From Anaerolineales bacterium (GTDB lineage Bacteria > Chloroflexota > Anaerolineae > Anaerolineales > UBA6663): 44,049 bases of DNA. A model generated the notes under the pieces. It saw only the letters and a program-made list of their open reading frames with translations. It did not search any database and had not been told where the DNA came from. The translations under genes and the position numbers were made by a program. Below, piece by piece: positions 5,727-12,988 of this stretch (its first letter is position 1; each line of letters begins with the position of its first letter). The stretch lies in the NCBI GenBank assembly GCA_016789175.1, contig JAEURK010000207.1:1-44049 (forward strand), written 5' to 3'.

Positions 5727-7400
5727 CTAGGCCCTGGCCGCGGCCTTGATGGCCTTCAGACGTTTCATCGTGTCGACCCCGCCGCGGCCGAAGAGGTCGT
5801 GCAGCCGCAGGTACTCGGCGAAGAGCTGGTCGTAGACCGGCTTGACCGTCGGGTCGGGGGTGTAGTGCTCGTCCTTGAGCCGGCCCATGCGCGGCGCCGC
5901 TTCGAAGATCGTGTCGTAGCCCCCGGCCGCTTTGCCCGCGGCTACCGCCCCGAACATGGCCGCGCCCAGGGCGGTGGCCTGGGCCGAGGCTGCCAGCTTG
6001 ATCTCGAGCCCGGTGACGTCGGCGTAGATCTGCATCAGCAGCTTGTTCTTCTCGGGCAGGCCGCCGCAGGCCACCAGTTCATGGATCGGCACGCCGTGTT
6101 GATTGAAGGCGTCGATGATCACGCGCGTGCCGAAGGCCGTGGCCTCGATCAAGGCGCGGTAGATTTCCTCGGGCCGCGTCGTGAGCGTCGCGCCGATCAG
6201 CAGGCCGGTCAGGTCGGCGTCGACCAGCACGCTGCGGTTGCCGTTCCACCAGTCGAGCGCCACCAGGCCGCTCTCGCCGGGCTTGAGGGCGGCCGCCTTG
6301 ACCTCGAGCAACTCGTGCACCGACAGGCCGCGCGCTTCGGCTTCGCGCTCGTAGGCGGCCGGGACACAGGTCTCGGTGAACCAGGCGAAGTGATCGCCCA
6401 CGCACGATTGGCCGGCCTCGTAGCCGATCAGTCCCGGCAGGATGCCGTCTTCGACGTAGCCGCACATGCCGGGGATGACGTGTTCTTCGCTGCCGACGAC
6501 CATGTGGCAGGTGCTGGTGCCCATGATCATCACCATGCGCCCCGACTCGGCCACGGTCGTAGCCGGCACAGCCACATGGGCATCGATGCTCGGGATCGCG
6601 ACGGCCGTGCCGGGCCTCAGGCCCATCCAGGCCGCGGCCTGGGCGGTGAGCGAACCGGCGCGCGAGCCGACCGGCGCGATGTCGCGCGACATCTTGGTGT
6701 CGACGATGTCGGCCAGGCCGGGCTCGACCTCTGTCAGAAACGCGCGGCTCGGAAAGCCCTCCCGTTTCGACCACATCCCCTTGTACCCGGCCGTGACCGA
6801 GTTGCGCGTCTCAACGCCCGTCAGTTGCCACACGATCCAATCGGCGGCCTCGATCAGACGATCAGCCGCCTGATACACCTCAGGCGCCTCGTTGAGGATT
6901 TGCAGCGCCTTTGAGAAGAACCACTCCGACGATACCTTGCCGCCATAGCGATCGATCCAGCCCTCGCCGCGCGTCAGCGCGACGGCGTTGATTCGATCCG
7001 CCTCGGGCTGCGCTGCGTGGTGCTTCCAGAGCTTGACCCAGCTGTGGGGATTGGCCCGGAACTTGGGCAGGGCGCAGAGCGGTGTGCCATCGGCCTTGAC
7101 CGGCAGCATCGTGCAGGCCGTGAAGTCGACGCCGACGCCGATGACGTCATCGACTGACACGCCAGCCTGTTTGATCACCGCCGGCACGGCCTGCTGGATG
7201 ACCTCAAGGTAATCATTCGGATCCTGAAGCGCCCAATCGGGTTCGAGCCGCAGCCCGCTCTCCGGGAGGCGTTCGTCGATTACCCCATGGGCGTACTTAT
7301 GGACGACGGCCGCCAGCTCCTGGCCGTTTTCGACGTCGACCAACACGGCACGACCCGACTCGGTCCCGTAGTCAATGCCAAGCGCAACCTTCTTCGACAT
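5727..7400 (-). CDS. araB: Ribulokinase
   Basis: 557-residue FGGY-family sugar kinase, the usual AraB length. It phosphorylates L-ribulose with ATP to L-ribulose-5-phosphate in L-arabinose catabolism. The N-terminal phosphate-binding motif [15 protein letters not shown], then [12 protein letters not shown] and the C-terminal [20 protein letters not shown] are typical AraB blocks. GGAGGCCACC precedes ATG 7400, giving a clear ribosome site, and TTGCAG/GATAAT boxes lie upstream. It converges on the sugar-sensor operon, and no araA or araD is visible within the window. The neighbouring sensor/transporter locus is therefore probably for pentoses (inference). Confidence 0.95.
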
Positions 7401-10748: not shown

Positions 10749-11918
10749 CTACAGCGGCCTGGGCGAGATCAGTGTGAATCCGCGCGCCAGCTCGGTCAGC
10801 CCGTCTGAGACATCCGAGAATCCACTGCCAAGCGCTGTGCCGATGGTGAGGACGAGGCTATCTCGGCCGCCCTCGTCGGATAACGCGGCGGCGCCGCCGT
10901 CATGCAGCAGATGCAGGCGCACGCCGCGCCCGAGCGTGTCCTGGAGTTGCGCGCACATCCAATCGCGCAGGTTAGGGGCCAGCAGGCTCAGCCGTCCATA
11001 GCAGCCGACGTCATCCGGGGCCGGGTGCCCGTCGAAGAGGTAGCAGGCCAGGCACAACCCGAGCTCGACCGGGCCGCCGGTCTCAAAGGTCCTGACGCAG
11101 TCTTTCACGATCGCCAGCATCCGCGCCCATTGGCGGGCTGCATCGTTTTGCGTCAACGGTATGTCCGCCAGCGGCGGGCAGACGCTGGCGAGGGTCGGCA
11201 GCAGTTCGAGCCAGGCCAGGCGACCGTCACTGTAACGCGCGATCCCGCGCTTGATCGAGGTTTGGCCGAAGTCGAAGACATAGCGGTCCGTGGTGGGCGC
11301 CGGCCCGCACCGGGCCAGTCCGACCAGGGCCAGATGGGCGCCGAACGGCGAGCGGGTCAGGCGCAGGTCGGCCGCGCCGTGTGCGTCGAGCACGGCCTGC
11401 GCGGCGGGCAGCGCGAGCTCGCCAAGGCGGCCGCTCAGCAGACCGCCGCCGATCACCACCCGGTGCAAACCAGCCCAGAACGCCCAGTGTTCGTCGTGCC
11501 ACTCGGGCCGCGCCGCGCGCGTCTCCGGCGCGCCGAGCTTGAGCGCGAGCAGCAGGCAACCCAGCCGCCGCCCGAAGCGGCGCGCGATGCTTTCGGCCCG
11601 TTGGTGATGTGCGGGCAGGGTGTGCGGCGCGGTCAGGATCCGATCGAGGGCTCGCGGCCAATCCGGCGTGGCGGGATCGAGGTCCAGCGCTTCAGCTGCG
11701 CTTTGAAGATCCTGTGCAAGCGACCAGCCGGTCGCCAGTTGAAACCCGGTCTTGCCCAGGGCGTCCGGCTCGTCAAGCCCGACCGGCAGAGCCCCGACCC
11801 GGGCGCGATTGAGCGACCTGAGCGTTCCGGCGCGGCCGTGGAAGGGGTGCACGGCGAAGGTGCCAGTGGGTGAGCGGGCGATCCGCCGGGCCGGGCCTGA
11901 CGCGTGAGCGCCGATCAC
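10749..11918 (-). CDS. ROK-like sugar-kinase-fold protein with circularly permuted motif order
   Basis: 389 residues. I can match ROK (repressor/ORF/kinase) elements, but in a rotated order. VVIGGGLLSGRLGELALP (154-171) with the following LGLARCG-type end resembles the normally C-terminal IVIGGG block. Then comes FDFGQTSIKRGIA (215-227), like the normally N-terminal phosphate-1 motif DIGGTKI. LLHDGGAAALSDEGG (338-352) is like ENDANAAALGE with D340 in the catalytic-base position. LTIGTALGSGF (358-368) is like LTLGTGIGGG. The ROK zinc motif CxCGxxGC is not seen. The start is GTG at 11918, with no strong SD. It lies 33 bases downstream of the aldolase gene on the same strand and is probably co-transcribed. 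Function unknown; possibly a sugar kinase or sugar sensor. Confidence 0.7.
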   Translation of the reverse strand: MIGAHASGPARRIARSPTGTFAVHPFHGRAGTLRSLNRARVGALPVGLDEPDALGKTGFQLATGWSLAQDLQSAAEALDLDPATPDWPRALDRILTAPHTLPAHHQRAESIARRFGRRLGCLLLALKLGAPETRAARPEWHDEHWAFWAGLHRVVIGGGLLSGRLGELALPAAQAVLDAHGAADLRLTRSPFGAHLALVGLARCGPAPTTDRYVFDFGQTSIKRGIARYSDGRLAWLELLPTLASVCPPLADIPLTQNDAARQWARMLAIVKDCVRTFETGGPVELGLCLACYLFDGHPAPDDVGCYGRLSLLAPNLRDWMCAQLQDTLGRGVRLHLLHDGGAAALSDEGGRDSLVLTIGTALGSGFSDVSDGLTELARGFTLISPRPL

Positions 11919-11951: not shown

Positions 11952-12902
11952 TCAGCTCAGGGCCGCCTTGATCGCGGCCAGTTGGCCGGCGGAGCCGAGC
12001 TTCTCGTTCTTGTGGGCGATGAACTTGCCGTACTCGGCCACGAAGATCTTGCCGGGCGGGCGGAAGTCGAACTCGGCCGACTTGTCGCGGAAGAACTCGC
12101 GGTGCACGCGCGTCCACACCAGGCGGCCGTCGGTGTCGATGTTGACTTTGGTCACGCCCAGTTTCGCGGCGCGCGCGAACTCGTCTTCGTTGACGCCGCG
12201 GGCCGACGGATCGAGCGTGCCGCCGGCGGCATTGATGCGCGCGACTTCTTCCTGCGGCACCGACGACGAGCCGTGCATGACCATCGGATAGCCCGGGATC
12301 TTCTGCTGGATGGCCTCGATGCGGTCGAAGTGCAGCGACTGCTGGCCCTTGAACTTGTAAGCGCCGTGGCTGGTGCCGATCGCGACCGCAAGACAGTCGC
12401 AGCCCGAGAGTTTAACGAACTTCTCGGCATCGTCGGGGTCGGTCAGGGCGGCGTGTTTCTCGTCGACCTTGATGTCTTCCTCGACGCCGCCGAGCATGCC
12501 CAACTCGGCCTCGACCGACAGGCCCTTGGCATGGGCGCGCTCGACCACGCGTTTGGTGATGGCGACGTTCTCGTCGAACACTTCGTGCGAGGCGTCGATC
12601 ATGACCGAGCTGTAAAAACCCGAATCGATGCAGTCGTAGCAGGTCGCCTCATCGCCGTGATCAAGATGGACGGCGAACACGGCTTCAGGGTAGCGCTCTT
12701 CGGCAGCGCGGATGATCGCCTCGATCATCTTGGCGCCTGCGTATTTGCGCGAACCTTTTGAGAGCTGGATGATGAACGGCGCCTGCGATTGCAGACAGCC
12801 TTCGAACAGGCCGAGCGCCTGTTCCATGTTGTTGATGTTGTAGGCTCCGACGGCGTATTTGCCGTACGCGAGCTTGAACAACTGGGCGGTGGTGACGATC
12901 AT
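11952..12902 (-). CDS. fba: Class II fructose-bisphosphate (ketose-bisphosphate) aldolase
   Basis: 316-residue zinc-dependent aldolase cleaving fructose-1,6-bisphosphate (or tagatose bisphosphate) to DHAP and glyceraldehyde-3-phosphate. Visible blocks: YAVGAYNINNMEQ near the N-terminus, VHLDHGD with the zinc/catalytic His and Asp, VEAELGMLGGVEED, AIGTSHGAYKF, VMHGSSSVP, and KVNIDTDGRLVWTR. A longer frame reaches 12974, but ATG 12902 has GAGGAACC upstream and starts the conserved MIVTTAQLF region. The extra residues upstream come from the AT-rich inverted repeat and are probably untranslated. It is followed by the ROK-like gene. It serves glycolysis/gluconeogenesis or deoxy-sugar breakdown. 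Confidence 0.95.
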   Translation of the reverse strand: MIVTTAQLFKLAYGKYAVGAYNINNMEQALGLFEGCLQSQAPFIIQLSKGSRKYAGAKMIEAIIRAAEERYPEAVFAVHLDHGDEATCYDCIDSGFYSSVMIDASHEVFDENVAITKRVVERAHAKGLSVEAELGMLGGVEEDIKVDEKHAALTDPDDAEKFVKLSGCDCLAVAIGTSHGAYKFKGQQSLHFDRIEAIQQKIPGYPMVMHGSSSVPQEEVARINAAGGTLDPSARGVNEDEFARAAKLGVTKVNIDTDGRLVWTRVHREFFRDKSAEFDFRPPGKIFVAEYGKFIAHKNEKLGSAGQLAAIKAALS

Positions 12903-12947
12903 TGTAGGTTCCTCATGAATTGAAACAGCAGTGAACAATTGCTGCTG

Positions 12948-12988
12948 GATGATCTCTGATTGCCGATTGAACACAATCAGAAATCATC
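12948..12988. repeat. AT-rich inverted repeat with GATTG words
   Basis: Arms 12948-12962 (GATGATCTCTGATTG) and 12974-12988 pair with one mismatch around an 11-base loop. The words GATTG and GCTGATTG recur, as in the element at 28095-28140. It overlaps the last codon of npdG and lies upstream of the aldolase gene. Confidence 0.65.

Follow-up and report, generated by a model that had tools for sequence, protein, structure and literature searches.

A conserved family of circularly permuted ROK-like proteins in Chloroflexota

The 44,049-nucleotide window analyzed here (positions 1 to 44,049 of contig JAEURK010000207.1, assembly GCA_016789175.1, from an Anaerolineales bacterium) encodes a ROK-like protein in which the two lobes of the ROK fold follow one another in swapped order. 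The open reading frame (ORF) of 389 residues (10749–11918, minus strand, GTG start at 11918) belongs to a conserved family. Its product is very probably a natural circular permutant of the ROK lineage, with an ASKHA (hexokinase-type) fold, and most likely an ATP-dependent kinase. The permutation, the conservation of the family, its relationship to ROK and the retention of the ATP-binding motifs were established computationally.

Along the chain, the adenosine motif GGG (residues 157–159) precedes the phosphate-1 motif DFGQTSIK (216–223), which is followed by the catalytic motif HDG.AAA (339–345, HDGGAAA with D340) and the phosphate-2 motif GTALG (360–364). The corresponding stretches are VVIGGGLLSGRLG (154–166), FDFGQTSIKRG (215–225), LHDGGAAAL (338–346) and TIGTALGSG (358–366). 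The initial annotation had proposed a rotated motif order at these residues, with the catalytic Asp kept and the zinc motif missing, and the ORF and all of its blocks were located as described; D340 is present, and CxCGxxGC occurs neither in the window protein nor in any aligned family member. That annotation is refined in that the protein represents a conserved family rather than a single case, the sugar-contact motif ExGH is also absent from the family alignment, its counterpart stretch falling at the permutation site, and the termini lie in the ExGH/zinc region.

The canonical C-lobe block now comes first (residues ∼30–208; 11295–11831, minus strand), aligning unrotated with the ROK C-lobe over 119–126 columns in hhalign and with positions 179–354 of a hidden Markov model (HMM) of the family in rotated, canonical order. 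It contains the SLNR motif, a G.TGF.LATG segment that is the counterpart of ROK GCLEaxaSG, the helix GRRLG, the GGG motif and the C-terminal ROK helix ALVGLAR. The canonical N-lobe block comes second (residues ∼209–389; 10752–11294, minus strand), covering positions 2–178 of the rotated HMM as well as the corresponding strands and helices of the predicted structure, and carries the two phosphate motifs and D340. Just ahead of the adenosine motif, the alignments revealed a highly conserved, family-specific insertion of 20 residues (∼130–149; 11472–11531, minus strand), modeled as helices 131–135 and 142–150, with the pattern RGDxxNRxARPxWxxxHWxxW and invariant R137, W140, W145 and W148; canonical ROKs do not have it.

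Profile comparison supported the permutation. The same genome encodes eight ordinary ROK proteins, and the family profile was compared using hhalign with a profile of ROKs from this genome, as well as with a smaller ROK set. Unrotated, it matched ROK with 83.4% probability over 119 columns, all in the C-lobe, while after rotation at residue 208 the match rose to 96.9% (E 1.3e-10) over 281 columns, spanning positions 6–306 of 321 in ROK. A scan of rotation points had its maximum at residue 208, with a score of 73.7 versus 43.3 unrotated, and column shuffles, the reversed profile and unrelated families stayed at ≤0.8%. A duplicated profile had been suggested as a check for one continuous hit, and tandem profiles indeed gave a single unbroken ROK match over the N/C junction (95.5–96.4%); the tandem family profile, at 96.4%, exceeded the linear match, as expected of a circular permutant. 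When the canonical-order HMM was run over 400 Chloroflexota genomes, every complete member was matched as two swapped pieces and never continuously, and the sample yielded no close relative with the canonical order.

The AlphaFold2 model of the window protein was compact and confident, with a predicted local distance difference test (pLDDT) score of 88.4 and a predicted template modeling score of 0.87. The control was L006, a canonical ROK encoded in the same genome; in its weaker model (pLDDT 77), strands and helices ran EEEHEHEHEEE-HHHHEHEH. After rotation those of the window protein read EEEHE(H)HEHEEE-HHHH(HH)EHEH, that is, no mismatch to the ROK elements in rotated canonical order once three additional helices are allowed for. 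The observed rotation was the best of all 22, and 143 of 20,000 shuffled strings equaled it at any rotation. The view that the two-lobed fold would stay intact despite the moved termini is thereby supported, and neither a canonical topology nor a fold unrelated to ROK was encountered in the prediction. In the model, the terminal ROK helix (193–203) passes via a short linker (∼204–211) into strand beta-1 (212–217). For comparison, the nucleotide lobe of Fusobacterium nucleatum NanK consists of residues 1–118 and 272–291, and its C-lobe of residues 126–268 (PMC5458393). The chain appears to have been cut between the phosphate-2 hairpin and a G.TGY.LLS segment, where ROKs carry ExGH and the zinc motif, and the position of the new termini in this region would explain the missing zinc motif.

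Whole-genome searches recovered relatives in about 25 Chloroflexota genomes, some as fragments only, and the 18 full-length proteins were used for the alignments. Besides an interrupted copy in the same genus, the relatives came from another family within the order, from other classes of the phylum and from a second order, in which 18 of 56 genomes carry them. The rotated block order was found in all full-length members. D216, G218, K223, D340, G360, T361 and G157–159 were invariant across the 18 sequences, which argues that the motifs are not chance matches, and the dN/dS ratios (non-synonymous to synonymous substitution rates) of close pairs, between 0.18 and 0.43, indicated purifying selection. 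No relative was found on viral contigs or plasmids, and a genome-wide scan extending beyond Chloroflexota, which used short exact patterns only, matched solely the same-genus relative. The typical N-terminus reads MxNPFLxx...SLNR. Four codons upstream of the start, two members (L032 and L035) carry an in-frame stop codon, so that no hidden N-terminal lobe precedes the start; in these two and L028, only a few residues separate the phosphate-2 hairpin from the chain end. The start of the window protein is perhaps at residue 23 (GTG at 11852) instead of 11918, because most relatives open with MxNPF.. about 13–20 residues ahead of the conserved SLNR motif, and because the model has a pLDDT <50 over residues 1–17.

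ROK proteins are recognized by the signatures DxGxT, a catalytic Asp, ExGH and the zinc motif CxCGxxGCx(E/D) (PMC5458393). The window protein has the first (DFGQT, 216–220, with D216 and G218 invariant), but in mid-chain, and the second (D340, aligned with the ROK ND site). It has neither ExGH nor the zinc motif, at whose position a residual G.TGY.LLS aligns. Since two of the four signatures are present and two are not, and PF00480 does not match, the protein should be filed as a member of a circularly permuted, ROK-derived sister family and not as a standard ROK. With ROK kinases and repressors (PF00480; e.g., Streptomyces griseus glucokinase 3vgk, NanK 2aa4, and GlcNAc kinase 4db3) it shares the two-lobed ASKHA fold, the DxGxT phosphate-1, catalytic Asp, GT-x-G phosphate-2 and GGG adenosine motifs, the same secondary-structure elements and, once rotated, a near whole-length profile match. 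It differs from them in the rotated chain, the two absent motifs, HDG in place of ND, and the Trp/Arg-rich insertion before GGG. F. nucleatum NanK (PDB 5nck) likewise has a ROK fold without a zinc-binding motif, but retains the canonical chain order and ExGH (PMC5458393).

Several observations weigh against a ROK-derived permutant. The natural sequence had no Pfam or NCBIfam match, none of the scanned relatives was recognized, and hand-rotated sequences gave no Pfam match either, PF00480 included; the sequence is therefore very divergent. Half of the ROK signatures (ExGH and CxCGxxGC) are missing, most members apparently derive from draft or metagenome assemblies that are fragmented, and an operon partner common to all lineages, which would point to a substrate, was not found. 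A phmmer search against the PDB gave no relevant match.

In the proposed rearrangement, the short linker would have fused the old C- and N-termini so that the nucleotide lobe became continuous, while the C-lobe would be assembled from both chain ends after a cut beyond the phosphate-2 hairpin. The predicted fold and its two hinge crossings are retained, as are the catalytic Asp and the motifs that bind ATP, and the protein may have arisen by duplication, fusion and truncation. D340 would be the general base of what is most likely an ATP-dependent small-molecule, probably carbohydrate, kinase. The substrate site may have been re-modeled, with HDG for ND, SLNR and G.TGY.LLS for ExGH and CxCGxxGCxE, and the Trp/Arg-rich insertion. 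Given the invariant ATP motifs and D340, the protein is most likely an active phosphotransferase, and because the sugar-contact motifs are replaced, its substrate is probably other than a typical ROK hexose. A permuted ROK fold that has lost substrate phosphorylation, and serves instead as a pseudokinase, sensor or ATP-dependent regulator, is an unlikely alternative. The loss of the ExGH and zinc motifs, the change of N to H in the ND motif, and variable neighbors with no clear sugar pathway are all consistent with it, and several ROK family proteins are repressors. However, no DNA-binding domain was present, the members opening directly with the C-lobe.

Descent of the permuted protein from another ASKHA branch (hexokinase, Glk, BadF/BcrA or FGGY) is considerably less probable. 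The pattern D-x-G-x-T-x-x-K, with Lys at T+3, occurs in several ASKHA families, and the best Foldseek E-values were obtained with hexokinase I. Foldseek, an order-dependent alignment, paired the entire permuted chain (387 columns, spanning both halves) only with the tandem hexokinase type I (PDB 1dgk), as expected if a C-lobe is followed by an N-lobe in the tandem. The rigid-body root-mean-square deviation was 34 Å, consistent with lobes that match different repeats of the tandem duplication. This duplication, in a protein which itself is unpermuted, explains the rank of hexokinase I. Matches to ROKs were partial only (130 columns for GlcNAc kinase 4db3), while the canonical control L006 matched ROKs over its full length, with template modeling scores of ∼0.7–0.86. 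The profile comparison with other branches covered Glk (PF02685), BadF/BcrA (PF01869) and FGGY (PF00370), which have the superfamily fold in common with the window family; their profiles matched it at ≤2% in linear, rotated and tandem form, versus 96.9% for ROK. Because ROK and Glk profiles match one another at 96.8%, these low values indicate that the kinship is specific to ROK, and that the parent was ROK-like.

An unpermuted, distinct fold with chance ROK-like motifs would agree with the lack of HMMER-level similarity to ROK, but the rotation scan with its controls, and an element order that fits at the true rotation and is rarely equaled by shuffled strings, make it very improbable. An artefact, with a misassembly, a chance ORF or two adjacent fragments of genes taken for one protein, would find some support in two damaged copies (G005 and G676), but is already refuted by 17 further full-length members from different genera and assemblies, the purifying selection and the single compact, confident model. 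In the closest relative (L012:1–1107, G005, same genus, ∼75% identity), a frame break with an ambiguous base disrupts the copy in the interval from residue ∼117 to residue ∼134, which may reflect an error or a pseudogene. In G676 (L060:7749–8890, minus strand), a frameshift in the linker separates the family member into C-lobe and N-lobe ORFs; the split may be natural or may stem from the assembly.

The initial annotation knew of no described permuted ROK family, and nothing relevant on circular permutation in ROK, ASKHA or sugar kinases was found in the open-access literature either, which is weak evidence of absence. The chances are about even that the family is both the first natural circular permutation described among ROK proteins, perhaps in the whole sugar-kinase/Hsp70/actin superfamily, and an active kinase of new specificity with its termini shifted to the substrate/zinc region. 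ASKHA enzymes close through a hinge motion between two lobes. If the permuted ROK origin is true, a ROK-type fold needs neither its canonical termini nor a zinc site, as the family swaps which lobe is continuous in the chain and puts the termini at the former zinc loop. The family would be a naturally occurring example of a two-lobed enzyme re-wired with its predicted shape unchanged, in which to ask whether chain order matters in folding and domain closure. It also implies that a member of a very common family escapes standard profile searches when permuted and divergent.

A tree of the family placed the window protein among sequences from the order of genome G740 (starred node, support 95/95), and within its own order the gene was found in only 3 of 400 genomes, which makes horizontal acquisition plausible. 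Immediately upstream, separated by a 33 bp gap, lies a gene for class II fructose-bisphosphate aldolase (fba; 11952–12974, minus strand), a possible operon partner, although fba was not seen beside the permuted gene in other lineages. In the order of G740 the arrangement is often ligA-gene-moeA; ligA adjoins or is near the permuted gene at seven loci from genera of that order (L044, L046, L050, L051, L052, L053, and L054), several of them with moeA too. Elsewhere, the genes beside the permuted one encode glycosyltransferases or are PMT-like. A substrate assignment from operon context was dropped, as the neighbors vary and none is common to all. A few kb away in the window, an ORF resembling an FGGY-type carbohydrate kinase (5727–7400, minus strand) matched PF00370 with an E-value of 5e-14.
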